Positions 22,914 through 50,505 of a stretch of DNA of 64,000 nt are shown here, piece by piece. Every line of letters begins with the position of its first letter. The stretch's first letter is position 1. The stretch is from contig NZ_CP018839.1 of NCBI RefSeq assembly GCF_001922305.1, positions 3,286,001 through 3,350,000 of the forward strand. Reading direction: 5' to 3'. Source of the stretch: Thauera chlorobenzoica (GTDB taxonomy: Bacteria > Pseudomonadota > Gammaproteobacteria > Burkholderiales > Rhodocyclaceae). The notes under the pieces are model-generated. The model was not told the DNA's origin, did not search any database, and worked only from the letters and a program-made list of their open reading frames with translations. The position numbers and the translations under genes were made by a program.

Positions 22914-23618
22914 TTATGGCCGCGTACCCGCAAACTCCCCTGCAGCATCGAAAACATGCCCCATGCGGTCGGCCTTCGTGTCGAGGTAGGCTGTGTTGTG
23001 TGAGTTTCTCCCGCCCGGCAACGCAACCCGCTCGACGACCTCGAACCCCATCGCGCTCAGGGCTTCCGTCTTCGCCGGATTGTTCGTCATCAAGCGTAAC
23101 CGTCGAACGCCGATGTGCCTCAGCAAAGGAGCGCAGACCGCATAATCCCGGGCGTCTGCCGGAAATCCCAGGCGCAGATTGGCCTCGACCGTATCCGCCC
23201 CGCAATCCTGCAGACCATACGCCCTGATCTTGTTGTGCAGGCCGATTCCCCGCCCCTCCTGGCGCAGGTACAGCAGGGCTCCGCTGCCCTCGGCACCGAT
23301 CCGCTCCAGCGCGCTGCGCAGTTGATGACCGCAGTCGCAGCGCAGGCTAAACAGCGCGTCACCGGTGAGGCATTCCGAATGGATGCGCGCGAGCACCGGG
23401 TCTGCGCCAGAGACGTTACCCATCGTCAGAACCAAGTGTTCCTTATGAACCAAATCGATGAAACTGTGCGCAACGAACATACCCCACCGCGTAGGGAGCT
23501 GACTCGAGGCGACAAAACGCACCCCGCGGTGCGGCCGGCTGCGGACAGCATCGTTCCGCCCGGCCCCTCCTGCTGCTGCCGTCTTTTCGGGCTCTTCGAT
23601 CTCAGGCTGCTGGAACAT
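22914..23618 (-). CDS. ribA: GTP cyclohydrolase II
   Basis: The 234-residue protein has three zinc-ligand Cys at about 83, 94 and 96 ([17 protein letters not shown]), the GTP-binding segment [20 protein letters not shown] and the late motif [13 protein letters not shown]. It opens the imidazole ring of GTP to start riboflavin synthesis. The start is the ATG preceded by GGGGAGG, which overlaps the nadC end by 17 bp. It is the last gene of the leftward catabolic cluster. It is the short form without a RibB domain, which suggests an extra, dedicated copy. I infer it boosts FMN supply for UbiX/UbiD. Confidence 0.93.
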
Positions 23619-24477
23619 CGGGCCTCCCCTCATGAAGAGCGATCCGCATCGACAGGTCGATCGCCTTGACGTCCTTCGTGATGCTTCCGATCGAGATACG
23701 ATCGACACCGGTTTCCGCCACCGTGCGCAGATTGCTCAATGTAATCCCCCCGGACGCTTCGAGCTCCGCCCGACCTGCCGTGATCCGCACTGCATGGCGC
23801 ATCTGTTCAACGTTGAAGTTGTCCAAGAGAATGAGCTTGGCGCCGGCCACGAGCGCTTCCTCGAGCTCCGCGCAATTCTCAACCTCGATCTGCAGCGGGA
23901 TCCCGGCGGGTGCAATCTCCGCCGCAGCTCGCAGCGCCTGCGCAATCCCGCCCGCGACCGCGATGTGGTTCTCCTTGATCAGTACCCCTGCGTAGAGTCC
24001 CATGCGATGGTTGTGTCCGCCACCGACCCGCACCGCGTATTTCTGTGCGACGCGCAGACCCGGCAGCGTCTTGCGCGTGTCGTAGATGCACGCCCCCGTT
24101 CCGGCCACTGCTGCCACGTATGCCCGCGTCGCGGAGGCAGTCGCGGAGAGGGCTTGCAGAAAATTGAGTGCGGCCCGCTCGGCAGTCAGCAGCGCGCGAG
24201 CGTTGCCGTGGATTTCGCACAGCGTGTCCCCGGGCGACACCTCGGTCCCTTCCTTCGCACGCCAGTCGATGTCGACGGCCCCATCGATCTCTCGGAAACA
24301 CTGTTCGAACCACGGCGCCCCGCACAGTACGGCGCGCTCTCGGCTGATCACCGTCGCGTGCGCCCGGCGGTCCGCCGGAACCAGCATTGCGGTGAAATCG
24401 CACCCCCCGATATCCTCCTCGAGCGCCGCACGCACCAAAGTCGAGATCTCCGATTCGAAACTCCTGTCGTTGCTCAT
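23602..24477 (-). CDS. nadC: Quinolinate phosphoribosyltransferase (decarboxylating)
   Basis: The 291-residue product has the family blocks [63 protein letters not shown] and [12 protein letters not shown]. It converts quinolinate and PRPP to nicotinate mononucleotide, CO2 and pyrophosphate in NAD synthesis. The ATG follows GGAGGAGACGTC. nadA and nadB are not adjacent, so this looks like an extra copy placed in the cluster. Phthalate is a known quinolinate-site ligand and inhibitor of this family, which gives a reason for its presence here. Confidence 0.94.
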
Positions 24478-24501
24478 GACGTCTCCTCCTGCATCGGAGC
24501 A

Positions 24502-25131
24502 TCAAACGGCGACGTCGGGGTTCAGCGCGTAGCGGCCGGCCAGCGTCGCGGTGTCGAGCACGTGCGGGCGGATCGCCTCGATGACGTCGCGTGCGCCGAA
24601 AGTCCCCGCCAGTGGGCATTTCGCCGTGTCGAGTGCATACAGCGTAAAGACGTAGCGATGCGGGATTTCGTCATTCCATGGCGGGCACGGTCCGTCGTAG
24701 CCGAAATACTGTCCGGCCATGTGCTCGTCGCCGGCAAACCACTGCGTGTAATCGTTGAGCCCCTGACGGGTGCCGTGCGGCGCGTACGGCCCAGGCTTGC
24801 CGCGCGGAACGACACCGTTCGAAAATTCCCCTTTGCCGATACCTTGCAGTTCCGGGGATATATCGACAAGGGTCCAGTGATACAAGTCGACCCGCGGAAT
24901 TCCGGCGGCGACCAGCCGTCCTTCCTTGTTTAAATCGTCAAGCACCGACGGCACATCCGGATCGTGGCACACGATGGCGAGCGATCGGGTGCCCGCGGGC
25001 AGGTCGCTCCACGCCAGATCGGGATTGAGATTGCCCGAAAGGACGATATGCGTCTCGGGGTGAGGTGCAGCAAACGCACATTCCTCTGGAATTCTTCCAT
25101 TGTCGTCAAAGCAGGTACTGGTCAGTCGCAT
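24502..25131 (-). CDS. YbhB/YbcL (PEBP) family protein
   Basis: The 209-residue product has PEBP-fold motifs: LSGNLNPDLAWSDLPAGTRS, AIVCHDPDVPS, then YHWTLVDIS and YGYDGPCPPWNDEIPHRYVFTLYAL. These proteins bind small anionic ligands; no enzymatic role is established. I chose ATG 25131 because GAGAGGAAA precedes it. The gene lies 24 bp upstream of nadC on the same strand. A role in the aromatic pathway is possible but not visible. Confidence 0.85.
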   Translation of the reverse strand: MRLTSTCFDDNGRIPEECAFAAPHPETHIVLSGNLNPDLAWSDLPAGTRSLAIVCHDPDVPSVLDDLNKEGRLVAAGIPRVDLYHWTLVDISPELQGIGKGEFSNGVVPRGKPGPYAPHGTRQGLNDYTQWFAGDEHMAGQYFGYDGPCPPWNDEIPHRYVFTLYALDTAKCPLAGTFGARDVIEAIRPHVLDTATLAGRYALNPDVAV

Positions 25132-25206
25132 GACAATTTCCTCTCGTTGCAAGAATCATTCAGATCGCCGATTCCGCCGCCATCGGCGATACCGGAGGTA
25201 GTGGTT

Positions 25207-25272
25207 TCACAAGTTCGCCCGCTCGCGATAGAGCCAGGGCCGAAACAGTCTGGTGCGGAGCAAGTCAAGATA
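25207..25272 (-). pseudogene. Detached C-terminal piece of the monooxygenase-like gene
   Basis: Just beyond the IS3 end, the minus strand reads YLDLLRTRLFRPWLYRERAN-L-stop. This resembles the usual C-terminal end of membrane-anchored ABM-domain proteins, and the gene on the other side of the IS3 element lacks such an end. I infer the element split one gene. No clear target duplication joins the halves, so a few bases may also have been lost. Confidence 0.5.
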
Positions 25273-25285
25273 GTTGTCGCCTGAT

Positions 25286-26371
25286 TCATGCAGCCAACTG
25301 CTTTATGTCTTCAGCATTGCTATGGATAGCAGCGTCGCACTCCGGGTTGAGCGTCACGACCTCGATCGGCGACCAGTTGCGTGTGCCGCGGGACCAGCGG
25401 GCCGGGTTTCGCTCGCGCGCCTTCAGGTACGTCTCGTGACGCGCCTGCAGGATCGCTCGGTCCTCGAGGGCATGGCGCTGCGCCGGGGTGACGTAGCGGA
25501 TGCCGCTATGGCGGTGCTCGACGTTGTACCAGTGCACAAAGTCGCGCCCCCACTGGCGGGCATCTTCAAGGGTGGCGAAGCCACGCGCGGGAAACTCGGG
25601 GCGGTACTTCGCCGTCTTGAAGAGCGACTCCACGTAGGCGTTGTCGTCGGAGACGCGCGGGTGCGAGTACGACGGTTTGATGCTCAGCCAGTGCAGCAGC
25701 GCCAGGACGTTGGTCGCCTTGAGCGTGCTGCCGTTGTCTCCATGCAACACGGGCTTTTCGAGCATGGCGTGCACGCCCTCGGAGAGCGCCGTGCGCTTGA
25801 GCAAGCACACCGCATGGTCCGAATCATCGGCGTCGTGGATCTCCCAACCGACGATCTTGCGGCTGTACAGATCCATGATCAGGTAAAGGTAGAACCAGTG
25901 TCCCTGCACTGCCGTGGGCAGATAGGTCATATCCCAGCACCACACCTGGCCGGGTGCGGTAGCCACATGTGTGGTCGGCGTGCGCGAGGGCTGGGGCGCA
26001 CGGGTGCGGCCGCGGTGCTGCGTTTGCCCATGGGCGCGCAGCACCCGCTGGAAGCTCGATTCACTGGCGATGTAGATGCCTTCGTCGGCCAATGCCGGCA
26101 CGATGCGCGCCGGCGGCTGGTCGGCGAAACGCGGCTCGTTGGCCACCGCCAGGATGCGGGCGCGCTCCGCTTCGGTCAGCGCATGTGCAGGCGTCGGCCG
26201 CTCGGCCTCGGGCCGTCGGTCGCCGGTGCGAAGGCCCCCCTCGGCGGTCCAGCGCTGCAGCGTGCGCACGGTGATGCCGGCCTCCTCGCAGGCCGGGCGC
26301 AGGCGTGCACCGGCCGCATGAGCCGCCTCGATATTGCGGACCAGTGTGTGGCGATCTTCCAGGGCGATCAT
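25286..26371 (-). CDS. IS3-family transposase OrfB (DDE integrase)
   Basis: The frame from ATG 26371 begins MIALEDRHTLVRNIEAAH. The integrase core follows: WCWDMTYLPTAVQGHWFYLY, LHGDNGSTLKA and SDDNAYVESLFKTAKYRPEF supply the acidic residues. Its ATG overlaps the orfA stop (ATGA). The frame is also open upstream to a run of seven A at 26410-26416 on the minus strand, a typical slip site for making the OrfAB fusion. Confidence 0.93.
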   Translation of the reverse strand: MIALEDRHTLVRNIEAAHAAGARLRPACEEAGITVRTLQRWTAEGGLRTGDRRPEAERPTPAHALTEAERARILAVANEPRFADQPPARIVPALADEGIYIASESSFQRVLRAHGQTQHRGRTRAPQPSRTPTTHVATAPGQVWCWDMTYLPTAVQGHWFYLYLIMDLYSRKIVGWEIHDADDSDHAVCLLKRTALSEGVHAMLEKPVLHGDNGSTLKATNVLALLHWLSIKPSYSHPRVSDDNAYVESLFKTAKYRPEFPARGFATLEDARQWGRDFVHWYNVEHRHSGIRYVTPAQRHALEDRAILQARHETYLKARERNPARWSRGTRNWSPIEVVTLNPECDAAIHSNAEDIKQLAA

Positions 26372-26847
26372 GCGTCCTCGTCCTTGTCCGTCGGAAAGAT
26401 CGCCGACAGTTTTTTTCGCAGCACCAACAGCGCGGCGGCTTCGGCCAAGGCTTTGTCCTTGCGGCGCAGTTCGCGCTCGAGTTCCTTGATGCGGCGCCGA
26501 TCGGCCTTCGTGGCGCTCGGGCTTGCGCGCACCTCTTCCGGGGCGGCCAACGCCTGCGTGGCGGCTGCACGCCACTGCTCGAGATCCTGGGGATACAGGC
26601 CCTTCTCGCGGCACCACGCGCCCTTGGTAGCCTCGTCCATCGCCGCGGTCGCCAGCACCGCCTCAAATCGGGCCGGCGCTGTCCAAGCCCGCTCGCGAGC
26701 GGGCTTGGACAGCGCATCCGCGCGCCACCGCTCCAGCGTTGCCGCTGTGATGCACAACTCACGTGAAACCGTTTCCACCGATGCGCTCTCCGGGGGCAGC
26801 AACCTTGCCACCACCTTGTCTTTAAATGCTTGTCCGTATCTGGCCAC
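26368..26847 (-). CDS. IS3-family OrfA
   Basis: The 159-residue product begins ARYGQAFKDKVVARLLPPES with a helix-turn-helix (VETVSRELCITAATLERWR) and a C-terminal leucine-zipper-like stretch (RRIKELERELRRKDKALAEA), as in IS3 OrfA proteins. The AAAAAAA at 26416-26410 lies inside its last codons and probably allows frameshifting into orfB. Confidence 0.9.
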   Translation of the reverse strand: MARYGQAFKDKVVARLLPPESASVETVSRELCITAATLERWRADALSKPARERAWTAPARFEAVLATAAMDEATKGAWCREKGLYPQDLEQWRAAATQALAAPEEVRASPSATKADRRRIKELERELRRKDKALAEAAALLVLRKKLSAIFPTDKDEDA

Positions 26848-26882
26848 TTCGTTCTTCCGCTATCGCCCTCGAGTTTCAGATT

Positions 26883-27461
26883 TTATCGAGGCGACAACCA
26901 TTCTGACCCAGAGGGGGTGATCGAGGGCATGACGATGTAGGTCAGCAGGACCACCGCAATCGGCACCAGTACCATCGTCGCCACATAAAGCGGCAGGTGA
27001 TCGAGCACGGGTCGCAACACCATCAACAGCGGCGTGATCGTCAGATACACGCCGAGAGCGCTCGCGATCATCATCTTGTGGCGGGGCGGTGGAATCATCG
27101 GCTGGGGCGAACCGGCGTTTGCCGGCAACTGAAACCATGTTTCCAAACCCACCGCCTGCTCGATCAGCACCGGTGCGCTCTCGACTGATTCGAGCTGCCT
27201 CACCAGTTCCAGCCGTTGCGCAGAGTCCTCCCATTGCCGCAGACTTGCGAAGCTGTCGAAGCTCACGATAATCCGGTACGCACGTTCCCCGGCTCCGGTG
27301 GGCTTGAGGACGGTGGCGCCCAGGTTGCCAGGGAACTGGCGAGCCGCACGAAGCCCTCCGCTCATGAGGACTTCCCACTCCAACTCCCGCCCGGGTTTCG
27401 GCACCCGAGTGACCATTAGCGTTACAGGATCCTTGAGCGCAGCCTGCCCCTCAGCAATCAA
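26883..27461 (-). pseudogene. ABM-domain (monooxygenase-like) membrane protein, C-terminus replaced by IS3 end
   Basis: From a TTG preceded by GGAGGGACC, the frame encodes an antibiotic-biosynthesis-monooxygenase-like domain (VTLMVTRVPKPGRELEWEVL, RIIVSFDSFASLRQWEDS). It then has a C-terminal membrane part with three helices (LGVYLTITPLLMVL, MVLVPIAVVLLTYIVMP). The last residues, WLSPR, and the stop come from the IS3 end. The native tail probably lies at 25207-25272. It starts 30 bp after the TRAP permease stop and was probably co-transcribed. Function is unknown. Confidence 0.7.
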
Positions 27462-27490: not shown

Positions 27491-29422
27491 TCAGTAGGAT
27501 GAAGTCTCGCGACGCTCACCCGGCCTCGAACCGGCGCGCATCGCCATCCATGCTCCGAATACTGCGGCGATTCCCCCGGCTGCCTGAGCAAGAGGCGAGG
27601 GAGCCAACAGCGCAAATCCTGCGGCCAGGAAACACAGGCGATGCACGATGCCGAGCGGCCATTTCCAGAAACCTTCGGCCGCCAGACACAGACAGGCCAC
27701 GGCAAGGGTCACCCCCAGACAGGCAAATGCAATCTGCAGCGGCGCTCCCGAGAACAGAATGCCATTGTTGTACACGAAGGCAAAAGGAACGATGAACGCA
27801 ACCATCGCCATTCTTACCGCCGCGAGCCCGATGGCAAGAGGGTTGGCGAGCGCGATGGGGGCAGCAGCAAACGCGGCAACGGCGATCGGCGGGGTCATCG
27901 CCGACAGGCTGGCGTAATAGACAAGAAACAGATGCGCAGCGATCAGCGAAACGCCAAGCTTCGTGAGCGCCGGCGCGACCAGCACCGCGGCGAGGATATA
28001 CACGCTCGGGGTCGGCATTCCCATCCCCAGCACCAGCGTGATGACCGCGGCGACCACCAGCGACAGGAACAGATCCGTGCCGGCAAGGAGGAAGATGAGT
28101 TCGGTTACCTTGGCGCCGAGCCCGGTCATCGACAGCCCGCCCACGACCAGCCCCGCGGCCGCACATGCGGCGACTACCGGCATCACCCGCAGGGTCGCTT
28201 CCGCAAGAATCTCGTAGAACCCTCTGAAACTCAGGCGCGTCTCCCGCCTGCACATCGCCACCGCGATCACCGCGAGGGTGCCGAATGCGGCCACGAAATT
28301 GGGGGAGTATCCGATGAGCAGCGCAAGCACCAGAGCGATCAGCGGGACCAGGAACATCCCTCCTCGCCGCATCGTGTCGGCGAAAACCGGCACCTTGTCG
28401 AGCCCGGTAATCCCCAACTTGAGGGAGTTGAGGTGCACCTGCAGATAGACGCAGAAATAACAGAGGAATGCCGGCACGATCCCCGCCAGGGCGATATCCG
28501 TATATCGGATGCCGGTGAACTCGGCCATGATGAAGGCTGCCGAACCCATCACGGGGGGCAGGATGCTGCCGCCAGTGGATGCGGCGACCTCGATTCCGCC
28601 GGCAAGGGCACCCGAGTAGCCAAGCTTCTTCATCATCGGGATCGTGATCGACCCGGTGGTGACCACGTCGGCCGTGGGACTTCCGGAAATGGTCCCGTAG
28701 AGTCCCGACGAGACTACCGCGATTTTCGCGGGACCGCCGGGGCTCTTGCCGCTCACGGCTGAAGCGGCATCGAAGAAGAAATCGCCGCCTCCCGTGCGCG
28801 ACAGGAAGGTTCCGAACAGGCCGAACAGGAAGACGTACGTCAATGCGACTCTGATCGGCGCACCAAAGATTCCGTCGGTCGTGAACGCGAGGATATCGAG
28901 AAAGTGGAGATAGTCGATCGGACCGTGGCCGAGCACGCCCGGCAACCGGTCACCCCACAAATTGTAGGCAAGGAACACGAGCACGATCGACGTCAGCCCC
29001 GGGCCTACGGTGCGCCGTGTCGCTTCGAGAGTGATGAGCAGCAGCCCGCTTCCGCAAAGGATGTCCCACGCAGTCAGTTCGTCGAGCAGTGTAATGCGGG
29101 TCACGATCCGCTCGTTGTGGAACCAGAAATAGGCCGAGATGCCGATGCTCGCCGCCGCGAGGATCAGATCCCAGACGGGAACACGGTCGCGACTCGAGTT
29201 CGCGCTCGCCCCCGTCGTCAGGAAGACCAGCGCGAGCATCAGCCCGAGGAAGACGATCGTCATCGCATAGATCTGGACGATCTGGATCGTTGTCACCCAG
29301 ACGATGCCGAGCGCAACCAGCGCCGCAAAGGGTTTCAGCAGATGCCCCGCCCAACTGTCGGGGTCGCGGCGGGCACCGGTCGTCAGGAATCTGCTCAGGA
29401 ATGAAAGGCTAATGCTGGACAC
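27491..29422 (-). CDS. Fused TRAP transporter permease (DctQM-type)
   Basis: The 643-residue membrane protein joins a small 4-helix part and a large permease part. Family motifs include LFGTFLSRTGGGDFFFDAA, SGLYGTISGSPTADVVTTGS and GGSILPPVMGSAAFIMAE. Such fused permeases pair with TAXI-type binding proteins; the binding-protein gene lies 214 bp upstream. It should use a sodium or proton gradient to import a carboxylate, here most likely phthalate or a relative. The start is GTG, preceded by GAGGAGAACC. Confidence 0.92.
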   Translation of the reverse strand: MSSISLSFLSRFLTTGARRDPDSWAGHLLKPFAALVALGIVWVTTIQIVQIYAMTIVFLGLMLALVFLTTGASANSSRDRVPVWDLILAAASIGISAYFWFHNERIVTRITLLDELTAWDILCGSGLLLITLEATRRTVGPGLTSIVLVFLAYNLWGDRLPGVLGHGPIDYLHFLDILAFTTDGIFGAPIRVALTYVFLFGLFGTFLSRTGGGDFFFDAASAVSGKSPGGPAKIAVVSSGLYGTISGSPTADVVTTGSITIPMMKKLGYSGALAGGIEVAASTGGSILPPVMGSAAFIMAEFTGIRYTDIALAGIVPAFLCYFCVYLQVHLNSLKLGITGLDKVPVFADTMRRGGMFLVPLIALVLALLIGYSPNFVAAFGTLAVIAVAMCRRETRLSFRGFYEILAEATLRVMPVVAACAAAGLVVGGLSMTGLGAKVTELIFLLAGTDLFLSLVVAAVITLVLGMGMPTPSVYILAAVLVAPALTKLGVSLIAAHLFLVYYASLSAMTPPIAVAAFAAAPIALANPLAIGLAAVRMAMVAFIVPFAFVYNNGILFSGAPLQIAFACLGVTLAVACLCLAAEGFWKWPLGIVHRLCFLAAGFALLAPSPLAQAAGGIAAVFGAWMAMRAGSRPGERRETSSY

Positions 29423-29636: not shown

Positions 29637-30617
29637 CTACTTGAGCAGGCCGGCTTCCCGGTAATAGGCTTCGGCGCCCTTGTGATACGGAATGACTTTC
29701 TGACTTGCGAGGAATTCAGGCGTGATCGCCTTCAGACTGCTATGTGCCCCCTGCAGCTTGTCGATGTGCTTATGCAGCGCCTCGGCGAGGTCATGGGCAA
29801 CCTTGTCTTCCATTTTGCTGTTGACCATGAGCACCGCTCCAAGCGCGACCGTCGGAACATCGACCGGTTGCCAGGGATAACTTCCGGCCTTGACGATGAA
29901 GGGCGCGACCTTCAGCTCTTGCGACACCGTATTGATTACGCGCTCGGAAACCGGCAGCAGCACAAGTTCGACCGCATCGCCGGCCTGGACAATGAAACTC
30001 GTCCGGACGAAAACCCCATTCGCGAACATGTCGATCCGCCTGTCCTTCATCAGGTCGCCCTGCTCGTCGGAGGCCGCGTAAATGACGTCGCCCCCCCATT
30101 TCTTGATGTCATCCACGGTCACACCGATCGCCTTGAACAGCTCGATGGCGACGTGCTCGGTGATGTTACCCCGCTTGTTCAGGGCGATCCGGAGCGGTGG
30201 CTTCTTCGCTGCGAGATCGTCAAAGCTGTGAATGCCGTATTTCTCGGCGAACGCCTTCGTGATGACCATCTGCATCGGCGCCCAGTTGTATAACAGGGCA
30301 ATCGCCCGGAGACTGGTAACCGGTCTTGCAAAGGGCTTCGCGCCGAGCGTCGCGATCTGAAGCTCGGCATCGTGCGCAATGCCCAATTCGACCTTTCCCT
30401 GGTCGATAAGCGCAATATTCGCGAGTCCACCTCCCGATGTCTGGTATGTGACGTCGGAACCCGGAAAGCTGTCCTTGATCGCCCCATCGATACCGACACC
30501 GATCATCGTCCATAACCCGCTCGGACTCGCGCCTGAAAGGGTCATCCGGTAAGGGTCCGCCGCTGCACTGAAACTCAATAACACAAAGGCAAGTCCGCAA
30601 ATGATGAATCGCAACAT
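29637..30617 (-). CDS. TAXI-family TRAP transporter solute-binding protein
   Basis: The 326-residue protein has a signal peptide (LRFIICGLAFVLLSFSAAA) and TAXI features: SGASPSGLWTMIGVGIDGAI, YQTSGGGLANIALIDQGKVE, LGIAHDAE and LRIALNKRGNITEHVAIEL. It acts in the periplasm, handing an organic acid to the fused permease. The cluster context points to an aromatic dicarboxylate, which is inference. AGGAGGAAACAAA precedes the ATG. It lies 295 bp downstream of the CoA-transferase genes. Confidence 0.92.
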   Translation of the reverse strand: MLRFIICGLAFVLLSFSAAADPYRMTLSGASPSGLWTMIGVGIDGAIKDSFPGSDVTYQTSGGGLANIALIDQGKVELGIAHDAELQIATLGAKPFARPVTSLRAIALLYNWAPMQMVITKAFAEKYGIHSFDDLAAKKPPLRIALNKRGNITEHVAIELFKAIGVTVDDIKKWGGDVIYAASDEQGDLMKDRRIDMFANGVFVRTSFIVQAGDAVELVLLPVSERVINTVSQELKVAPFIVKAGSYPWQPVDVPTVALGAVLMVNSKMEDKVAHDLAEALHKHIDKLQGAHSSLKAITPEFLASQKVIPYHKGAEAYYREAGLLK

Positions 30618-30776: not shown

Positions 30777-30809
30777 GAAATAAACATCCACAATCTGGAT
30801 GTTTATTTC
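30777..30809. terminator. Strong hairpin between the CoA-transferase and TRAP genes
   Basis: A perfect 14-bp stem, GAAATAAACATCCA and TGGATGTTTATTTC, with a 5-base loop (CAATC). It is AT-rich and not followed by a T tract on the minus strand, so it may be a transcript stabiliser, processing site, or operator dyad as well as an attenuator. The rest of the 295-bp gap (30618-30912) shows no gene. Confidence 0.6.
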
Positions 30810-30912: not shown

Positions 30913-32133
30913 TCACTGAAACGCCCCCTCTCGCTCGCAGGCCATGTATTCGTCCACGGTCATGCCGAGAAGCTCCTGGAACACGTAAGCGTTGTCCTGC
31001 CCAATTCGTGGGGCGGCTGCGGTGACATCACCCGGCGTCGCCGACAGATCGAAGGCCGAGAAATAGCACGCCACGTCGCCGATACTGCCGTGCAGGCGAC
31101 GACGCCAGATGCGCCGGTACGCAAGCTGCGGATCGCAGAACAAGTCTGCGATCGTATTGACCGGATAGGCGTGAACCCCGACCGCCTGAAGCTGCGCCGC
31201 TGTCTGCTCGGCGGCACGCGTTAGCATGCACCGGGAAACGATCTCGTCGAGTTCCCCCACGTTCGCGTGCCGGCTCGCGTGCGTCGCGAACCGGTGGTCG
31301 GATCGGAGTTCAGGACGCCCCAACACGTTCGCGAAACGCCCAAACTCCTCATCGGACCAGCACGACAGCGCAAGCCACGCTCCGTCGCTGCACTGATAGG
31401 CATTGTGCGGAGCGGCATCCGGATCGCGGTTGTCCGCGCGCTCGGCCACACGACCATTGCGGTGGTAGTCGAAAAGTGCGCCGGCGATGAACATCAAGCC
31501 ACTCTCGTATTGCGCCAGATCGATCCACGCGCCCTCGCCCGTCCGTCGCTGGCGGTCGACCGCCGCCAGGACCGCAGTTGCACCCAGCGTCGAGGCAATA
31601 AAGTCGATGTACGGGCCGTAGAGCAGCATTGGCGGACCGTCGGGACTGCCGGTCAACCCGCAAAATCCGGCGAGCGCCGACAACTGAGAGCCGAACCCCG
31701 GCGTCTGCGCACGCGGGCCGGTCTGACCCATGTTGCAACTCGAGATCATGACAATCCCGGGGTTCAATTCTCGCGCCGCCTCGTAACCGAGTCCCAGCCG
31801 ATCCATGACTTCCGGTCGCATGTTCTCGACGACGATATCCGCCCAGCCGACCAGCCGCCGCGCGAGGTCGGTACCGGCCGAGGTCTTCAGGTCCAGCGTT
31901 ACGGCATGCTTCGAGTCATTGAAGATCGCGAAACAGCCGCCCCGGTCGGGGCCCGGCTTACCGTCCTTGAATGGCGGATACTCTGTGCGGAAACCATCAG
32001 GACGCTGATGTGACTCCACGTGCACGACGGTCGCGCCGAAGGTTGCGAGCATCTTGCCGATGTGCGGCCCTGCCGCGTACGCGCCAAACTCGGCCACCTT
32101 GACTCCGGCCAAGGCTTGAGAAATCGCGCTCAT
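30913..32133 (-). CDS. Family III CoA-transferase, catalytic-type subunit (probable succinyl-CoA:phthalate CoA-transferase)
   Basis: The 406-residue CaiB/BaiF-type protein has GVKVAEFGAYAAGPHIGKML at the start, VENMRPEVMDRLGLGYEAA in the middle, and the expected catalytic Asp at about 177 in YGPYIDFIASTLGATAVLAA. Family III enzymes form an aspartyl-CoA anhydride and move CoA between acids. ATG 32133 overlaps the stop of the partner gene by 4 bp and follows AAGGAGGGG. Paired with the next gene and UbiD it matches the known phthalate-activating enzyme (phtSa/phtSb-type naming in the literature). Substrate is inferred from context. Confidence 0.88.
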   Translation of the reverse strand: MSAISQALAGVKVAEFGAYAAGPHIGKMLATFGATVVHVESHQRPDGFRTEYPPFKDGKPGPDRGGCFAIFNDSKHAVTLDLKTSAGTDLARRLVGWADIVVENMRPEVMDRLGLGYEAARELNPGIVMISSCNMGQTGPRAQTPGFGSQLSALAGFCGLTGSPDGPPMLLYGPYIDFIASTLGATAVLAAVDRQRRTGEGAWIDLAQYESGLMFIAGALFDYHRNGRVAERADNRDPDAAPHNAYQCSDGAWLALSCWSDEEFGRFANVLGRPELRSDHRFATHASRHANVGELDEIVSRCMLTRAAEQTAAQLQAVGVHAYPVNTIADLFCDPQLAYRRIWRRRLHGSIGDVACYFSAFDLSATPGDVTAAAPRIGQDNAYVFQELLGMTVDEYMACEREGAFQ

Positions 32134-33332
32134 ACGAGTTGCCCCTCCTTCTCCATCACCGTCGCCCCCGCGACGTCCACCGGCTTCGATCCCGCACGGC
32201 ATTCATTGAGCAAGGTCACAACATCGATCTCCTCACCGGGCCGATGACGCAGGGGTTGCCGGGCCTGGTCGACAATCGCGAAGCTGCCGCAATGCCGCTG
32301 CAACTCGCCGTCGGGACCCTGCAGGTCGTCCCAGAACGCGCGGGCGCCGAGTTGCGGATCGGTGGCGATATCCTGCATCGTGGAAACCGGATAACCGAGC
32401 ATCTCCCGCCGACTCGCCTGCTCAAGAAATTCTCGCTTCGGGATACCCAGAAAGAACGCAGCGATCGGGCGTTCCATCTCGTCGACTTCCTCCTGGCTGG
32501 CAAGCTTCGGATCGAAGCGCTTCCAGTCGGTCTGTGTCAGCACCCCGAGATCCGCCCCGCACTCACGCATCCACTCGACGAGCCGCGCGTTGGTCCGTCG
32601 CCCGGCCGGACCACCGTACAGCACGAAGTTCAGATAGCCGTCGGCGCAGGGCCAGAATGCGCGGAAGCGCGCGCCCTTTACGGAGCGGCCGCTGACAAAG
32701 GCGCCGGCACGCGTCGGATTCGTGCGTTCCATATCCCAGAACGCCGGCGCATGGGACAGCGCGAGGATGACGGAAGCTTGTGCAGACACGTCAATACGCT
32801 GGCCTACACCCGTCGCCGTTCTGTGAATCAGCGCCGTGAGGACACCGACTGCAGCCTGAGCGCCAGCCCAACAATAGGACTGCGGCACGGTCACGCGCAG
32901 CGGGGTCTCACCGGGCTCGCCGGCAAGCGACATCGCACCACCTGCGGCCATCAGCTCAAGATCCGAAGCAAGCCACCCGGCGCGCGGGCCTTCGGCACCA
33001 AACGGTGTCACCGACACCTGGATCAGCCGAGAGTTGCGTTGCCGCAACCGCTCGGGGTCCAGCCACGACGCGAACGGCGTGCCCGGCTGCGCCGATTCGA
33101 CGAGGATATCCGTGTGATCGATCAGGTGATCGAACTGCGACCGTCCTTCGGGCGTTTCGAGATCAAGCCGCAACAGGCGCTTATTAACGTTGTAGGCCTG
33201 CCAGTCTGGATCGTCGACGGGCATCCCAGGTGCCTCAATCTTGATTACGTCTGCCCCGAGATCGGCCAGCAACCGCCCGGCGAGCCAGCCGATGCGGTTG
33301 CTGAGATCCAGGACGCGGTATGCGCTTAACAT
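32130..33332 (-). CDS. Family III CoA-transferase, partner subunit lacking the catalytic Asp
   Basis: The 400-residue protein has the CaiB/BaiF fold: MLSAYRVLDLSNRIGWLAGR, RLLADLGADVIKIEAPG and WLASDLELMAAGGAMSLAGE. Aligned by eye at the catalytic position it reads VPQSYCWAGAQAAVGVL, with Tyr/Cys where the Asp should be. That suggests a non-catalytic partner in a hetero-oligomer, as in other two-subunit family III enzymes. AAGGAGCGCCC precedes the ATG. It follows ubiD by 28 bp and overlaps the next gene, so ubiX, ubiD and both transferases form one operon. Confidence 0.87.
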   Translation of the reverse strand: MLSAYRVLDLSNRIGWLAGRLLADLGADVIKIEAPGMPVDDPDWQAYNVNKRLLRLDLETPEGRSQFDHLIDHTDILVESAQPGTPFASWLDPERLRQRNSRLIQVSVTPFGAEGPRAGWLASDLELMAAGGAMSLAGEPGETPLRVTVPQSYCWAGAQAAVGVLTALIHRTATGVGQRIDVSAQASVILALSHAPAFWDMERTNPTRAGAFVSGRSVKGARFRAFWPCADGYLNFVLYGGPAGRRTNARLVEWMRECGADLGVLTQTDWKRFDPKLASQEEVDEMERPIAAFFLGIPKREFLEQASRREMLGYPVSTMQDIATDPQLGARAFWDDLQGPDGELQRHCGSFAIVDQARQPLRHRPGEEIDVVTLLNECRAGSKPVDVAGATVMEKEGQLV

Positions 33333-33360
33333 GGGCGCTCCTTGTCGTCCTGGCGGTCTC

Positions 33361-34944
33361 TTAACGGCCGGTGCGGGCGAGCGACAGCACCCAGCCGGCC
33401 ATGCGCGACTTCATCTTGTCGATGTCCTTGGCGTCGAAGAAGTTCTCCGGCTTGACCAGATCGACGCCATACACCGGCCGGTGGAAGTCGCTCTCGTAGC
33501 CGTACGGCACCGTCGCGTCGATGCCCATGCCGCCTTCGAACTGGGTGTTGGAAGCGGTCCATTGCTTGTCACCCGAGGTCATGCGTTCGGCCGGCATGAA
33601 GGTCTGACCGCGCCCACCCGGCAGCGGATTGAGGATGTCGGTCTGCGGATTCACGCGGGTGGTGAGACACCACATGATGTCGTCCATCGAGTAGATGTCG
33701 ACGTCTTCGCTCACCGCAATGGCCAGCCGCATGCCCTGCGAGCAGGCGAGGATGGCGGCGAGGAAGTTGCGCTGCCAGCCTTCCTCGATCTGGTTGCGCT
33801 TCTTCACCTGGATGATGCAGCCGCCCCAGTCGGTCATGCAGTACGGAATATGCACGTTCTGCACGATGCCCGGTTGCAGGCGCTCGCACAGGGCGAAGAT
33901 CGCCGATTCGCGCACCGAGGTGTCAATGTTGGCGTCGTCCGCGGTGTGCACGCCGAGCGGGAAGATGATCGGCTTGCTCTCGCGGCGGCGCATCGTGATC
34001 GCGGTGACGTGGAAAGTCGGCGCCTTGTAGGCCTTGCCCATGTAGCCCGCCCATTCCGGATGGAAGTGGAAGCGGCCCTGGATGTCGGCGGCTTCCGACT
34101 CGGCGGTCTCGTAGCGCTTGTCGCGCGGATGCAGGTAGCCTTCGAGCACGTATTCCGCATCGGCCAGCGTGTAGGCGTCGATGGTGCGGCACTTGACCAG
34201 ACGCACCGGCGAGCCCTGGATCGCCCCGGCGATGCCGATCTCGTCACAGCCCTTCGGCAGGATCGCGTAGTCGAAACCCGCGCCGGCGACGTAGGTGCAC
34301 GACGGCGGCACGCCGAAGCACATCGTCAGCGGAATCGGCTCGTCGTCCTTGTAGTGCTCGGTCATCACCTGCCACATGTGCGATCCGGGCGAGATCTGGA
34401 AGGTGCCGACGTTGCCCCAGCGGAAGTTCATGCGGTTGTAGCCGATATGGCTGCCGCCATCGAAGTACGGGCCGACCACGCACGAGATGCCCGAGCCGAT
34501 CGTCATCTCCGTCTCGAGCGGCGTGTGGCGGATCGCGGTGAGCCACTTGTTGACGTCGAGATCGGTGGTCAGCACTTCCTCCTGCACCGGAGCCTCGTCC
34601 TGGCCGATGATCACCGGCTTCAGGGGGTGATCGATGGCGCGGGCGACCTTCTTCACGCGGTCCAGCGAATTCTCCCAGCCAAACAGTTCCTCGACGACGC
34701 GGATGTCGCCGAACAGGTTGGTGATGGCACGCGCATGCGGCATGTCCTTCACGTTGTTGAACAGCATCGGCAGGCTGCCGTCGAAGATCTTCTGCAGCCC
34801 CGTGATTTCGAGGTCCGGATTGACCTCCTTGTTCGTTTCGACCAGATAGCCCTTGCTGCGGAACCACTCCAGCGCCGCGCGCAAGTCCTTTTCGCCCACC
34901 CGCTCCGCCGCTTCGCTGATTCCCTTCGTTGCCAGATCGTTCAT
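33361..34944 (-). CDS. UbiD-family decarboxylase, probable phthaloyl-CoA decarboxylase, copy A
   Basis: The 527-residue protein has UbiD-family blocks: MPHARAITNLFGD, HIGYNRMNFRWGN with RM near 171, SPGSHMWQ with His about 189, ADAEYVLEGYLHP with Glu about 267, and PEWAGYMGKAYKAP with Glu about 297. By eye these fit the prenylated-FMN and metal site. UbiD enzymes reversibly decarboxylate aromatic or unsaturated acids. Next to two CoA-transferase genes the best match is phthaloyl-CoA decarboxylase, which yields benzoyl-CoA. GGAGGCAGTGCG precedes the ATG. A ubiquinone-pathway role is unlikely in this context. An identical gene lies at 41867-43450. Confidence 0.9.
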   Translation of the reverse strand: MNDLATKGISEAAERVGEKDLRAALEWFRSKGYLVETNKEVNPDLEITGLQKIFDGSLPMLFNNVKDMPHARAITNLFGDIRVVEELFGWENSLDRVKKVARAIDHPLKPVIIGQDEAPVQEEVLTTDLDVNKWLTAIRHTPLETEMTIGSGISCVVGPYFDGGSHIGYNRMNFRWGNVGTFQISPGSHMWQVMTEHYKDDEPIPLTMCFGVPPSCTYVAGAGFDYAILPKGCDEIGIAGAIQGSPVRLVKCRTIDAYTLADAEYVLEGYLHPRDKRYETAESEAADIQGRFHFHPEWAGYMGKAYKAPTFHVTAITMRRRESKPIIFPLGVHTADDANIDTSVRESAIFALCERLQPGIVQNVHIPYCMTDWGGCIIQVKKRNQIEEGWQRNFLAAILACSQGMRLAIAVSEDVDIYSMDDIMWCLTTRVNPQTDILNPLPGGRGQTFMPAERMTSGDKQWTASNTQFEGGMGIDATVPYGYESDFHRPVYGVDLVKPENFFDAKDIDKMKSRMAGWVLSLARTGR

Positions 34945-34986
34945 CGCACTGCCTCCATTGAATTGAGCCTGGAATTGAGAGTTGAG

Positions 34987-35589
34987 TTATTGCTTTTGCG
35001 GCTGAAGATTCGCGATCTTCCGACCGCGCATCTCCCCCTCCCACCGCCGCGCAAATTCGGCCGGAATGCCGAATTGATCGAGAATCCGGGCCACCACGTG
35101 ATCGACCATGTCGTCGAGCGTCGCCGGATGGTTATAGAACGCCGGCATCGGCGGCATGATCGTCGCCCCCATGCGGGAGAGCTTCAGCATGTTTTCCAGA
35201 TGAATGTCGGAGAGCGGCATTTCGCGCGCGACCAGCACCAGCCGACGACGCTCCTTCAGGATCACGTCCGCGGCGCGGTGCACGAGGTGGTCCCCCGTGC
35301 CGTGCGCAATCGCCGCGAGGCTGCGCATCGAACACGGCGCGATCACCATGCCTTCGGTCATGAACGATCCCGACGAGATCGACGCCCCCATGTTGCCCTC
35401 GACGTGATCGACGTCGGCCAGCGCGCGAACCTGCTTCGCCGTGTACGGCGTCTCGTGCTCGATCGTCTGGATCGCCCACTTGCTCAGCACGAGGTGCGTT
35501 TCGACATCCGATTCCTGCAGCGCCTCGAGCAGGCGAACGCCGAAAATCACGCCCGTCGCGCCGGTGATGCCCACAATCAGTCTTTTCAT
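34987..35589 (-). CDS. ubiX: UbiX-type flavin prenyltransferase, copy A
   Basis: The 200-residue protein starts MKRLIVGITGATGVIFGVRL, the FMN-binding start. It has MGASISSGSFMTEGMVIAPCSMRSLAAIAHG, ending in the conserved Pro-Cys-Ser, and a late RMGATIMPPMPAFYN motif. It attaches a dimethylallyl group to reduced FMN to make the UbiD cofactor. I chose the ATG preceded by GAGGATCAA; a TTG five codons upstream is possible. It is the first gene of the catabolic operon and lies 42 bp before ubiD. Idi at 37095-37673 could supply its prenyl donor. Confidence 0.95.
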   Translation of the reverse strand: MKRLIVGITGATGVIFGVRLLEALQESDVETHLVLSKWAIQTIEHETPYTAKQVRALADVDHVEGNMGASISSGSFMTEGMVIAPCSMRSLAAIAHGTGDHLVHRAADVILKERRRLVLVAREMPLSDIHLENMLKLSRMGATIMPPMPAFYNHPATLDDMVDHVVARILDQFGIPAEFARRWEGEMRGRKIANLQPQKQ

Positions 35590-36083
35590 TTGATCCTCGC
35601 TCAAGGGGGAAACGCGATCCAGGTCTCGCCAGAACAGTCCATATTACGAACTACAAATCAGCATCACCACCGACAACAAACCACTGTTTTGACGACTTGT
35701 TGGCAACTCTAGGCATGTGCACATGCACAAACAACCCGCCCGGCTCAATTCTTGTTCCATATTTTGGACTTTTGCAGAACACCCTCGGCAATGGCGGATT
35801 CAACAGCCGGCGGCGGAGAGAATGAGGCGGACGTGGCGGCCCGCCACGCGCTTCGCGCAGCGACATCGAACCCGACGTTTCGATTTCACCGGAAAACAGA
35901 CTGACTTGCGGACATGCCACCGCAAACCGCACCAGCGAATGCGGGCAGTCAGGCGCTCCCAATCAGGAATTCAGCGAAGCAGATAAACAACCCCAGCAAG
36001 GAAAACGACCATGCGCATCGCAGGCGCGAATCACAGCCCCGCACCGCGGAGATGACACCCAGGGGATTGCGTCGATACACCCC
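35590..36083. promoter_or_regulatory. Control region of the ubiX-ubiD operon
   Basis: No gene is seen in these 494 bp. Two dyads stand out: a perfect 14-bp palindrome GCATGTGCACATGC (35713-35726), and TCCATATTTTGGA (35756-35768), a size and form that could suit an IclR-type operator. Both lie within the repeated block and so also precede ubiX copy B. The IclR-family gene sits directly upstream. Binding is not proven. Confidence 0.55.
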
Positions 36084-36872
36084 TCACGGGTGGACGGTAT
36101 CGCTCACCGCCGCTTCGAGATTGACGATTTCGGACCGAATGAGCGCAACCAACTCCTTCTGGCGCTTCTCGGCCATCCGCTCGGAAATGGCGCCTATGCT
36201 GATTGCGAGAAAGGGTTCGCCGGAGCGCGAGCGTATCGGCAACCCGACCGAAGTCGCGCCAGGCGTGATATGGGCATCGTTCAGCGCATAACCCAGTTCG
36301 CGGCATCGCTTCAGCAAACGCATCAGCGCGGGCACCGTCAGATTGTTGTATGCCCCGAGCCGCAGCGCATTGGCTGACACGATATCCTCGATAGCTTCAT
36401 CCGCCAGGGACATCAGCAATGCCAGCCCGCCCGCACCAACCCCCAACGGGCGCCGCGTGCCCACGTCCAGCGTGAGCGTCTTGATCGGAAACGATCCCTC
36501 GGCGCGATCGACACACACAGTATCGAAACCACTGCGTATCGTCAGGAAGACCGTGTCGCCGGTCTGCTCGGCGAGCCTCGCCAATGCCGGCCGGCAAATG
36601 TCGCGCAGGTTGAAGCTGGATGAGGCGGCAAGCCCGAGTTCGAAGGTCAGACGCCCCAGAAAGTAACGACGCGTCTCAGCATCCTGGCTGACCAGCCCCT
36701 CCGTAATCAGGCATTTCAATATCCGATGCACTGTCGGCCGCTCGAGCCTGGCGTGGCTGGAGATATCCACCAGGCGCAGGCCGGTGCCATTGCGTGAAGC
36801 GATGATGCGCAGCACATGGGCCGCACGCTGGATGCTCTGTGTTCCTGAACCGGGGGAAGCGTGGTCACTCAC
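36084..36872 (-). CDS. IclR-family transcriptional regulator
   Basis: The 262-residue protein has an N-terminal winged helix (SIQRAAHVLRIIASRN, then RPTVHRILKCLITEGLVSQD). A C-terminal effector domain follows (VGAGGLALLMSLADEAIEDI, GYALNDAHITPGATSVGLPI). IclR proteins often control aromatic-acid pathways and respond to the substrate or an intermediate. The start is GTG preceded by AAGGAATT. It lies between the catabolic operon and the rightward idi-aroC pair, so it may control both; the ligand is unknown. Confidence 0.92.
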   Translation of the reverse strand: MSDHASPGSGTQSIQRAAHVLRIIASRNGTGLRLVDISSHARLERPTVHRILKCLITEGLVSQDAETRRYFLGRLTFELGLAASSSFNLRDICRPALARLAEQTGDTVFLTIRSGFDTVCVDRAEGSFPIKTLTLDVGTRRPLGVGAGGLALLMSLADEAIEDIVSANALRLGAYNNLTVPALMRLLKRCRELGYALNDAHITPGATSVGLPIRSRSGEPFLAISIGAISERMAEKRQKELVALIRSEIVNLEAAVSDTVHP

Positions 36873-37094
36873 GGCACAATTCCTTATTTAGGTCCACATA
36901 TTGAAATTTTATTGCCAGCCTTTGGCTTGTCAATCTTCATTCCGAAGAATAGATTCGATTCCACAAAACACGCGACCCGGTCGTGCGGCTCAAGACAAGT
37001 CTGCATGTTGGACATTATCACGGCGTGCGTACCGTTGCAGCGGCGAGTGGCGCTGCAACCCCTGCAGCGCTTGTTTTTGAAATATGGAGCGCTT
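36873..37094. promoter_or_regulatory. Divergent promoter region between iclR-type gene and idi
   Basis: AT-rich around 36880-36920 (CCTTATTTAGGTCCACATATTGAAATTTTA), in contrast to the surrounding coding DNA. TCCACATATTGAA resembles the TCCATATTTTGGA dyad upstream of ubiX, which would fit shared control, but the match is short. No small gene was found. Confidence 0.45.
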
Positions 37095-37673
37095 ATGGAA
37101 GACCAAGTGATTCTGGTTGACCTGAACGACAATCAAGTCGGCTTCGCCGGCAAGATGGCGGCGCATCGCAGCGGCGAGCTTCACCGCGCCATTTCGATAT
37201 TCGTCTTCGACGCTGCCAGCCGGGTCCTGCTGCAAAAGCGCGCCTCGACGAAATATCATTCCGGGGGACTTTGGAGTAATACGTGTTGCAGCCATCCGCG
37301 CCCAAATGAAGACACCACCGATGCGGCGCGCCGCCGGTTGCGCGAGGAAATGGGTTTCGATTGCGAACTTCAGGAAGTGTTCAGCTTCGTGTACCAGACA
37401 AGGTTCGACAACGGCCTCATCGAGCACGAATATGATCACGTCTTTTTCGGACATCATGATGACAAGCCCGTATTGAATCCGGAAGAGGCCGAAGACTGGA
37501 AGTGGATGGACATGAGGCAATTGGCCGCCGATATACGTGAACACCCGGAGAGCTACAGCGTCTGGCTGGCGGCATGTGTTGACCGCGTTGTCAGTTTTCG
37601 GACTTCAGGGCACTCCGGCCACCTTACGGAGGAGACATGTCGGGAAATTCGATCGGCAAACTCTTTGTCGTAA
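37095..37673 (+). CDS. idi: Isopentenyl-diphosphate delta-isomerase, type I
   Basis: The 192-residue Nudix-fold protein has [16 protein letters not shown], the catalytic Cys in [14 protein letters not shown] (about 64-65) and the catalytic Glu region [13 protein letters not shown] (about 110-112). It interconverts IPP and DMAPP. Many bacteria using the MEP route do not need it, so its place here suggests a special demand for DMAPP-derived dimethylallyl groups for UbiX. GGAGC precedes the ATG. Its end overlaps the aroC start by 37 bp, so the two are coupled. Confidence 0.94.
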
Positions 37674-37785
37674 GCAGCTTCGGCGAAAGCCACGGCCCCG
37701 CACTGGGAGGCGTGGTCGACGGCTGCCCCCCGGGGCTCGAGTTGTCGGAGTCGGATATCCAGCCCGATCTCGACCGCCGCAAACC
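37637..37785 (+). pseudogene. aroC: Chorismate synthase gene, 5' part, interrupted by IS4-family element
   Basis: From ATG 37637 (CGGAGGAGAC before it) the frame reads [40 protein letters not shown] and DLDRRKP, the chorismate-synthase N-terminus. The IS4-family element starts at 37786; the 9-bp target duplication CCGCAAACC is at 37777-37785. Precise removal of the element would restore an open frame reading [12 protein letters not shown]. Confidence 0.95.
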
Positions 37786-39198
37786 CATTCCATTACACAC
37801 AATTCATTCATCATGCTGGTCACGCGCGTACTTGAGCCCCGCCGCGAAATCCATGACGCGCTGAAGACCGATCCAGATCGTCTTCACGCCGGGCTCGCCG
37901 TCGCCCTTGCGCCCGAGAAAGCCGCCGAGCATGGCCACCAGACGCACCATCTCGTTGAGTGCAGGCGGTTTCTCAGGAGGACGCTGCTTGTTCAGGATGA
38001 AGGCCGCCTGCCATTCGTCACGCTCGAAGAGCAATTCGGCCTCGAGCTCGGGACAGGTTCGGCCCAGTCGCATCAGCCGGGCAATACGCCAGGCCACCAC
38101 CATGAACAGCGCCAGCGCGCGCTCCAGGCGCGGCACCGTCGCCAGTTGCAGCGCCTCGACCTTGCAGCCGTTCTTGAGCACGTGGAAGAAGAGTTCGATC
38201 TCCCAGCGCGCCCGGTACCAGTCGATGAGTTCGCTTGCCGCCTCGAAGCTGGCCGCCTCGCGGTTGGTGAGCAGCCGCCATTCGACCGGCTTCACGCCGG
38301 CCGGTGCACCGATCTCACGGGCGATCACGCACGTCGCCTCGAGGTGATCGCGGGGCCCGGCCTTGAGCTTGACGCGCGAGGACCAGACTTGCTGACGCAC
38401 CTGCCGCGCCTTTTGCCCCTTGCGCGCAGGGATCGTGAAGCGGATCTCCCCCAACGGTTCTGCGCCCAGCACGCGCGGCCAGAGCTTATCGCCGCCGGGC
38501 AGCGCGCGGTTGTGCTGCGAGCGCAGCAGCCAGTCGGCCGGGCAACCCAGCTCGCGCGCCCGCGCCATCAGCGCGACGATATCGGCTTCCCGATCCGCGA
38601 CATACACCAGGCGGGTGGCGGGCAACGTTGCCGCGCGTTCGGCGATCCGCTCGTAGCCTTCGATCCAGCGCACGCTCTCGGTGAGGCCGCCGCGCGTGCC
38701 ATCGTCGGCCTTCGGTTCGCGCGCCCACATCCACGCATCGAGCACGCCCAGGGGCTCGCGCGCCGGCGACACGGCGTAGGTCGGGTGCAGGTACATCCCG
38801 CGCTGCGCTTCAAACGACAGCGGTCCCAACCCCTCGATCGCCTGGCCGTTGAAGTCGAGTTCGGTCGTGTCCTGGATGCACAGCACCACCGCATGGGCCG
38901 CCATGCGTTCATCGGTGCGCGCCAGGTGCGGTGCCAGGATGTCGGCCCAGCCGATGTCGTCGTCCGACAGCAGCCGGTACGCCGCCTGCGTCTCCGCCCA
39001 GCCGCCACAGGCGGCCGGGATGCTGGCCGTCGGTTGCGCCCCCAGCCGCTCGGCCAGCAACACCGTGCGCCGGTTCAGGCGCTGGTCGCCCAGGTCGATG
39101 GTTTCAAATTCGTCGGCAGCCCAGCTCATGGATGGTGTCGTCAGATCGGAAAGGTCAGGAGCTTACGCAATGACGTTCGCGTTGTGTGTAATGGAATG
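37786..39198 (-). mobile_element. IS4-family (IS50-like) insertion sequence in aroC
   Basis: The 1,413-bp element has perfect 17-bp inverted ends, CATTCCATTACACACAA, and a 9-bp target duplication, CCGCAAACC, at 37777-37785 and 39199-39207. It has one transposase gene on the minus strand. The clean duplication indicates a simple and fairly recent insertion. Confidence 0.96.
37804..39129 (-). CDS. IS4-family transposase
   Basis: The 441-residue product begins [20 protein letters not shown] and has the IS50-type signatures [25 protein letters not shown] and [23 protein letters not shown], which hold the DDE residues. The frame is intact, so the element may be active. Confidence 0.94.
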
Positions 39199-40144
39199 CC
39201 GCAAACCAGGGCAATCGCGCTATACGACCGCACGTTCTGAAAACGACAGGGTAGAAATCCTCTCGGGAGTTTTCGAAGGACGTACTACCGGAACGCCCAT
39301 CGGTCTTCTGATCCGCAACACCGATCAGCGCTCAAAGGACTATGCCCGGATCAAGAATCTTTTCCGCCCCGGCCATGCCGACTACACCTATCAGCAGAAG
39401 TACGGCATACGGGACTATCGCGGTGGCGGCCGATCGTCGTCGCGCGAGACTGCTGTGCGGGTCGCGGCGGGGGCCATCGCGAAGAAGTATCTGAGGGAGC
39501 GCTTCGGGGTGCATATCCGCGGCTACCTGGCCAAGTTGGGGCCGATTGCCGCGATGCAGCTGGACTGGGACGAGATCGGGCGCAATCCGTTCTTTTTTCC
39601 CGATGCATCAAGGGTGGATGAACTCAAGCACTACCTGGACGCATTACGCAAGGACGGAGATTCGGTCGGTGCCCGCATAAACGTGATCGCCCACAGCGTG
39701 CCGGTGGGACTCGGAGAGCCGGTGTTCGACCGGCTCGACGCCGATATCGCACACGCACTGATGAGTATCAATGCCGTCAAGGGGGTGGAGATCGGCGACG
39801 GATTTGCCTGCGTTGAACAGCGGGGCAGCGAACACCGCGACGAAATCATGCAGAACGGATTCGCGAGCAACCGGGCGGGCGGAACCTTGGGAGGCATCTC
39901 GTCGGGCCAGGACATCCTCGCCAGCATCGCGCTCAAGCCGACGTCGAGCATCCGAACCCCGGGAAAAACCGTCGACATCACAGGGGATCCCGCTGTGATC
40001 GAGACACACGGAAGGCATGACCCCTGCGTTGGAATACGCGCAGTCCCGATCGCAGAAGCCATGCTGGCCTTGGTCCTGATGGACCACGTGTTGCGCGACC
40101 GCGGCCAGAACGCCGATGTACCCCGGCCACTGCGTGAAAGGTGA
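39199..40144 (+). pseudogene. aroC: Chorismate synthase gene, 3' part
   Basis: After the second copy of CCGCAAACC the frame continues [60 protein letters not shown] and the C-terminal [19 protein letters not shown]. It is complete to its TGA. The normal enzyme makes chorismate from EPSP and needs reduced FMN. As no other aroC is in the window, a housekeeping copy must exist elsewhere if the cell makes aromatic amino acids. Confidence 0.95.

Positions 40145-48156: not shown

Positions 48157-50505
<2,349 letters not shown>

Follow-up and report, generated by a model that had tools for sequence, protein, structure and literature searches.

An anaerobic ortho-phthalate gene cluster of Thauera chlorobenzoica whose predicted regulon includes idi and may include other genes serving the host around the pathway

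The window analysed here is a stretch of 64,000 nucleotides of Thauera chlorobenzoica (bases 3286001-3350000 of NZ_CP018839.1, in a genome of 3.74 Mb on one contig) that carries a cluster for anaerobic ortho-phthalate degradation in which idi, nadC, ribA and an interrupted aroC accompany the catabolic genes. We propose, with a probability of about 0.6, that genes feeding, and perhaps protecting, the host around the pathway belong to the regulon of this cluster. An IclR-family regulator would read palindromic sites, with phthalate or one of its products relieving repression. Idi probably converts isopentenyl diphosphate (IPP) into dimethylallyl diphosphate (DMAPP) for the prenyltransferase UbiX, so that the abundant decarboxylase UbiD is filled with prenylated flavin mononucleotide (prenyl-FMN), and it is an even call whether RibA, which catalyses the first step of the flavin pathway, contributes FMN. 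Imported phthalate, as a quinolinate mimic, would occupy the housekeeping NadC while the extra NadC would keep nicotinamide adenine dinucleotide (NAD) synthesis running, and AroC would be part of a fuller gene set that is broken in the window.

The phthalate assignment is firm because UbiD is identical to the phthaloyl-CoA decarboxylase of PDB 8pmk (527 of 527 residues), and this bears out the anaerobic phthalate pathway that an earlier note on this DNA had read from the letters. The gene set listed there (ribA, idi, ubiX, ubiD, two CoA-transferases and a TAXI-TRAP transporter) is present in full, with profile scores above the cut-offs; nadC, a YbhB/PEBP-family gene (pebp), an ABM-domain gene, iclR and the aroC broken by an insertion sequence (IS) had been overlooked. 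The order of transcription on the minus strand is iclR (36084-36872; PF01614, PF09339), ubiX copy 1 (34987-35604; TIGR00421, 258.3 bits against a cut-off of 108.9), ubiD copy 1 at 42 bp from ubiX (33361-34944), two family III CoA-transferases (A, 32130-33332; B, 30913-32202; both PF02515), the TAXI solute-binding protein (29637-30617; TIGR02122), a fused TRAP (tripartite ATP-independent periplasmic) permease (27491-29422; TIGR02123), the ABM-domain gene (26883-27461; PF03992, 23.8 bits against 23.1), an IS3-type element that splits the operon here (25286-26847; rve integrase domain), pebp (24502-25131; PF01161), nadC (23602-24477) and ribA (22914-23618). The idi gene, encoding a type I isopentenyl-diphosphate isomerase (37095-37673, plus strand; TIGR02150, 117.6 against 105.8; PRK03759, 165.3 against 127; PF00293), diverges from iclR and is followed by the interrupted aroC. 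By its predicted gene content (UbiD, UbiX, two family III CoA-transferases, TAXI-TRAP) this is a known, denitrifier-type anaerobic ortho-phthalate cluster. The two PF02515 proteins fit succinyl-CoA:phthalate CoA-transferase genes, with phthalate as their putative substrate, and the TAXI-TRAP uptake genes lie close to the catabolic genes, a feature described in PMC13040137. The window also fits the account in PMC8269228, which places the phthalate genes of T. chlorobenzoica on the chromosome with transposon elements.

For comparison, UbiD was scanned against a species-genome collection, giving 207 relatives, of which the best 80 of 207 were kept (79 loci); plasmid 2 of EbN1 was added (L083), and the resulting 80 phthalate (pht) loci were searched by tblastn. 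Further samples were 150 genomes of the family, 399 of the order and 20 picked for their UbiD loci. Locus counts of idi, ribA and nadC are lower bounds because contig ends cut some loci, as in A. buckelii, whose idi lies just beyond L005. In Aromatoleum evansii KB740 (L004) iclR-ubiX-ubiD-CoA-transferase-CoA-transferase-TAXI-TRAP-abm-pebp-nadC-ribA is uninterrupted, with idi-aroC divergent and the gap filled in the window by the IS3-type element absent. The grouping of pebp-nadC-ribA with the rest is therefore no accident of the window, and a chance grouping of the genes is ruled out.

Within the close clade idi is strongly associated with UbiD; beyond it the association is weak or absent. Five of the six family genomes with UbiD (E at most 1e-100) carry idi, against 1 of 144 without UbiD (n=150; Fisher 6e-8, relatedness uncorrected). 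In four of these five idi lies inside the cluster, and in the fifth (G071) on another contig than UbiD; the one UbiD-positive family genome without idi (G119) is an assembly that is 87% complete. By tblastn idi is present in at least 9 of the 80 loci, namely 6 of the 17 whose UbiD is at least 84% identical and 3 at 74-75%, the latter three with a distant idi (43-51%) close by that has no operator pair; 10 of the 20 genomes picked for UbiD have idi. With idi in 3 of the 399 order genomes, a gene common to these bacteria is ruled out; UbiD (E at most 1e-180) is present in four order genomes, of which the window's is the only one to carry idi. Beyond this cluster type idi also keeps company with prenyl-FMN genes: it stands next to a different ubiX (53-54% identity) on the EbN1 chromosome (L163, 8820-10310, gap 385) and in A. 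toluclasticum (L197, gap 70), neither of these two having the pht operator pair, and in a Hyphomicrobiales metagenome-assembled genome (MAG; L044) it precedes ubiD by 198 bp. IspH yields DMAPP as well as IPP, and since the host genome also encodes IspH, idi is an addition and not the sole source of DMAPP.

Repeated palindromes of the type GTCCAnnnTATGGAC occur upstream of ubiX in the window, in A. evansii, in EbN1 (two copies) and in genome G137. An operator matrix built from twelve ubiX-upstream sites, with no idi region contributing, was run across the loci, and a pair was called where each site scored at least 10, the sum was at least 26 and the sites lay 90-136 bp apart (spacings found, 94-133 bp). 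Upstream of ubiX in the window lie a proximal (35637-35651, score 19.9) and a distal (35755-35769, score 22.8) predicted operator, both training sites and 118 bp apart; between iclR and idi lie two from outside the training set (36892-36906, score 16.9, and the weak 36999-37013, score 10.4) at a spacing of 107 bp. A shared predicted operator, with putative binding, is therefore present upstream of both ubiX and idi. Such pairs precede idi at nine separate loci (the window, L004, L083, L187 from A. buckelii, L009, L011, L014, L055 and L193 from A. toluclasticum), and idi keeps a pair of its own even in L011 and L014, where iclR is not its neighbour. The total was 48 pairs in 1.87 Mb of loci plus the window, overlapping loci being counted repeatedly, and 0 in 1.92 Mb of shuffled sequence (two-base blocks, one shuffle per locus). 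The pairs adjoin ubiX, iclR, idi or nadC/MBL (a gene for a metallo-beta-lactamase-fold protein), as in a Nitrosomonadales MAG (L006) where the space between MBL and nadC holds one. The exceptions are one pair of L011 (again in L184), near an unlabelled gene, and five pairs of L187, L188 and L193, where the fetched piece holds no labelled gene; among these five, the L188 pairs repeat the ubiX pairs of L004, and the L187 pairs repeat those of L005. The idi of Sulfuritalea (L190), on the cluster's contig but more than 50 kb off, has one strong and two weak sites, that of G137 (L153) has one site, and the idi-side scan found no pair in L127, L128, L194, L196, L197, L202 and L203, nor in L044, L048 and L051. 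A single operator-like site also lies upstream of the TAXI gene in the window (30786, score 13.4) and in A. evansii (14145, score 14.4), a possible internal promoter.

Taken together, idi is conserved, and apparently it is co-regulated with ubiX-ubiD, and IclR is presumed from its position alone to be the reader of the predicted operators. The role in cofactor supply that the earlier note gave to Idi gains indirect support from the co-occurrence, the shared predicted operators and the idi-ubiX neighbourhood at other loci. A conserved, operator-linked idi would be a genetic handle on the demand for prenyl-FMN and a part that may help the expression of UbiD elsewhere.

The same genes could instead boost common cofactors and chorismate during fast growth on any aromatic acid, with nothing specific to prenyl-FMN or phthalate. 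RibA, NadC and AroC do feed FMN, NAD and chorismate generally, and the host has copies of its own, among them another aroC on the window's chromosome (67% identical to the A. evansii copy). We regard this as unlikely, as the predicted operators tie idi to ubiX-ubiD, idi recurs beside different ubiX genes, among 11 genomes only the two that carry a pht aroC had a second copy of that gene, and two full nadC genes were found among the 150 family genomes only in the window's.

Less likely still is that idi, aroC, pebp, nadC and ribA were swept as hitch-hikers, with no phthalate role, into a mobile, IS-rich catabolic island. The local history lends itself to this reading. An IS4/Tn5-type element (37786-39198, minus strand; PF02281, PF14706, PF01609) flanked by 9-bp repeats cuts aroC into a 5' piece that overlaps the end of idi (37637-37785, plus strand) and a 3' piece (39199-40144, plus strand; PF01264), so that the stretch 38849-40144 holds the edge of the element and the 3' piece of the chorismate synthase gene; the cluster aroC is uninterrupted in A. 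evansii and G137. The ubiX-ubiD genes with their upstream region form an exact 2573-bp repeat (33259-35831 = 41765-44337), the second copy being on the minus strand with its own operator pair (44143, 44261), and in EbN1 and A. buckelii the cluster is located on a plasmid. Two ubiX-ubiD copies are also present in EbN1 and A. buckelii, which suggests repeated selection for dosage. Against hitch-hiking stand the same gene order with small gaps in A. evansii, the presence of pebp-nadC-ribA together in L012 and L007, the operator pairs of idi even apart from iclR and the rarity of idi elsewhere. Purifying selection also speaks against it, dN/dS between the window and A. evansii being 0.130 for nadC, 0.130 for ribA and 0.138 for idi, rough values at a dS of 0.88 to 1.45. 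AroC requires reduced FMN.

The nadC gene of the cluster encodes a second quinolinate phosphoribosyltransferase (QPRT) isozyme. The cluster NadC is 59% identical to the host's other NadC, scores 306.5 bits on TIGR00078 (cut-off 198.4) and conserves the pocket residues DTRKT 133-137, HR 157-158 and KENH 168-171. By tblastn nadC is present in at least 6 of the 80 loci. Six genomes (the window's, G150, G152, G153, G156 and G157) have a pht-locus NadC plus another, so that for the window's and the five others a cluster nadC as the host's only copy is ruled out; in G006 (= G168) and G119 the pht-locus copy is the only one found. No NadC match at E 1e-20 was obtained in 6 of the 20 UbiD genomes (G158, G160, G165, G166, G167, G169), which points to assemblies that are incomplete or to a different route to NAD.

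A single clade (100/99) takes in the NadCs of the window, L004, L006, L007 and L012; counting 25 database relatives it has 30 members. Three Sterolibacterium-type pht-locus NadCs form a separate clade, and its sisterhood to the cluster clade, on which one putative recruitment of nadC as against two would turn, is weak (0.465). Compared with 130 other NadCs (35 from the family and 95 among the nearest database relatives), five positions separate the cluster clade, three of them (132, 159 and 163) in substrate-binding segments and two others (63 and 252). At residue 132, Tyr or Phe stands in 29 of 30 members and in 0 of 130 others, which have Met, Val or Leu; residue 163 is Ala in 27 of 30 and in 0 of 130, where all have Asp; and residue 159 is Met in 25 of 30 against 11 of 130. 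By a constant offset from named pocket residues, 132 corresponds to Arg136 of Mycobacterium tuberculosis, which PMC3633916 lists among the residues holding the 3-carboxylate, and 159 and 163 fall in the lid named loop L in PMC4726147. The window's Tyr132 and Ala163 are diagnostic of the cluster lineage: of 38 further NadC loci (some repeats), 37 were readable, 4 being the cluster genes again and the other 33 lacking Tyr/Phe132 and Ala163.

Phthalate is quinolinate with benzene replacing pyridine. For human QPRT the dissociation constants are 5.2 uM for phthalate and 4.8 uM for quinolinate, with a highly similar binding mode, according to PMC4726147, and a structure of the M. tuberculosis enzyme with phthalate and phosphoribosyl pyrophosphate (PRPP) is reported in PMC3633916; no inhibition constant for a bacterial enzyme was found. 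Because the human enzyme binds phthalate about as tightly as quinolinate, a phthalate-importing cell should have its NadC under strain, and the pocket changes of the cluster NadC would favour quinolinate over phthalate. From the residues in the pocket segments we tentatively regard the extra NadC as a phthalate-tolerant bypass copy. A more speculative step is that an isozyme telling quinolinate from phthalate acts as a self-resistance gene, so that, with idi and ribA, the operon would both supply its rare cofactor on demand and protect the host against its own growth substrate, an antimetabolite. If true, the idea would explain an NAD-biosynthesis gene in a xenobiotic operon, and plasticiser phthalate would strain NAD synthesis in bacteria without the isozyme; it was not met in the papers searched, a scope that left out the primary enzyme papers. 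That the extra NadC serves to import or degrade quinolinate or other pyridine dicarboxylates, taken up through the same transporter, is very improbable: quinolinate resembles phthalate and is acted on by an aerobic phthalate dioxygenase (PMC13040137), but UbiD is the phthaloyl-CoA decarboxylase, the annotated cluster open reading frames (an annotation that is not exhaustive) include no pyridine-degrading gene, and NadC, which consumes PRPP and makes nicotinate mononucleotide, would be a poor carbon route.

The ribA gene (minus strand, probable start 23618, overlapping nadC by 17 bp) encodes the stand-alone short form of GTP cyclohydrolase II that the earlier note had named, with 234 aa, PF00925 above cut-off and 251.2 bits on TIGR00505 (cut-off 205.85). 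It occurs at five loci, the window and L004, L006, L007 and L012 (4 of the 80 by tblastn), always with nadC, and the chromosome holds another RibA homologue at 49% identity. The earlier note's joint supply by idi and ribA thus divides: conservation in related clusters holds within the close clade in the case of idi and gives a mixed picture for ribA, and a cofactor made to order is plausible, well supported for idi and weaker for ribA, which always lies behind nadC and is missing from the EbN1 cluster.

Two known systems come closest. Plasmid 2 of EbN1 (NC_006824) resembles the window in having idi divergent from iclR, ubiX-ubiD, two CoA-transferases, TAXI-TRAP and an abm-like gene; its UbiD is 93.7% identical, and operator pairs lie upstream of idi and of both ubiX genes. 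It differs in that no nadC, ribA, pebp or aroC was found in the 33.6 kb fetched, and its two ubiX-ubiD copies have a transporter, a porin and a further ubiD gene between them. A. evansii has the same genes and arrangement from aroC through ribA and differs from the window in its intact aroC, the absence of IS elements between these genes and, within the fetched locus, the single ubiX-ubiD copy; no MBL gene was found there either. The structures PDB 8pmk, 8oz5 and 8p02 concern phthaloyl-CoA decarboxylase itself and not neighbouring supply genes. The literature searched, by title, abstract start and term counts, held no paper that connects phthalate clusters with idi, with nadC or with an IclR operator; the 2017-2018 primary papers on the enzyme and 10.1038/ismej.2016.91 lay outside that scope, and an earlier mention of idi is possible.

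A number of observations weigh against a regulon of host-serving genes. The operator matrix and the pair limits were picked after the sites had been seen, the second idi-side site of the window scores lower (10.4) than sites in or near the transporter genes (13.4 at 30786, 12.0 at 28496), and a lone site of 15.1 stands immediately upstream of an idi that has no cluster (L203). Among the window's 25 best sites none between 25131 and 26883, upstream of pebp-nadC-ribA, reaches a score of 10, and ribA lies behind the IS element without a predicted operator of its own. Outside the close clade idi is absent from the other three UbiD genomes of the order sample (75-80% UbiD identity; 0 of 3) and from the five of the 20 picked genomes with UbiD at 76-80% (0 of 5), and five more of those 20, at 84% or more, also have no idi. 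Since the clusters of EbN1, G137 and the fetched part of A. buckelii have neither nadC nor ribA, and EbN1 is described as a phthalate degrader in the literature, these two genes are not essential. For NadC, G161 has two full copies (48 and 47%) and no nadC in its fetched pht locus, the Sterolibacterium-type pht-locus NadCs have neither Tyr132 nor Ala163, and the sequence of PDB 3gnn also has Ala at 163.

The remaining features concern the surroundings. The MBL gene (40769-41716, minus strand; PF00753) lies between aroC and the second ubiX-ubiD copy and has relatives in L006, L011, L055 and L153. The cluster flanks (10707-17781 and 48157-57052) contain a Tn3 transposase, two metal-type P-type ATPases, a CusB/HlyD-like protein, IS66 and a probable IS21, and by this predicted content the surroundings are a metal-resistance and catabolic island. 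Rfam (gathering thresholds) and tRNA scans of the window gave no matches. The ABM-domain gene is conserved in A. evansii and EbN1. Several pht loci (L007, L009, L011, L055/L158, L083 and L005) hold an additional divergent UbiD (23-26% identical) with other transporters. In L061 a UbiD of the same family (73%) sits on a contig whose label, Klebsiella pneumoniae MAG, is probably wrong through binning or naming. Two pht loci that bear nadC share a gene for a zinc-type dehydrogenase (L006, 4247-5251; L158, 16626-17633).

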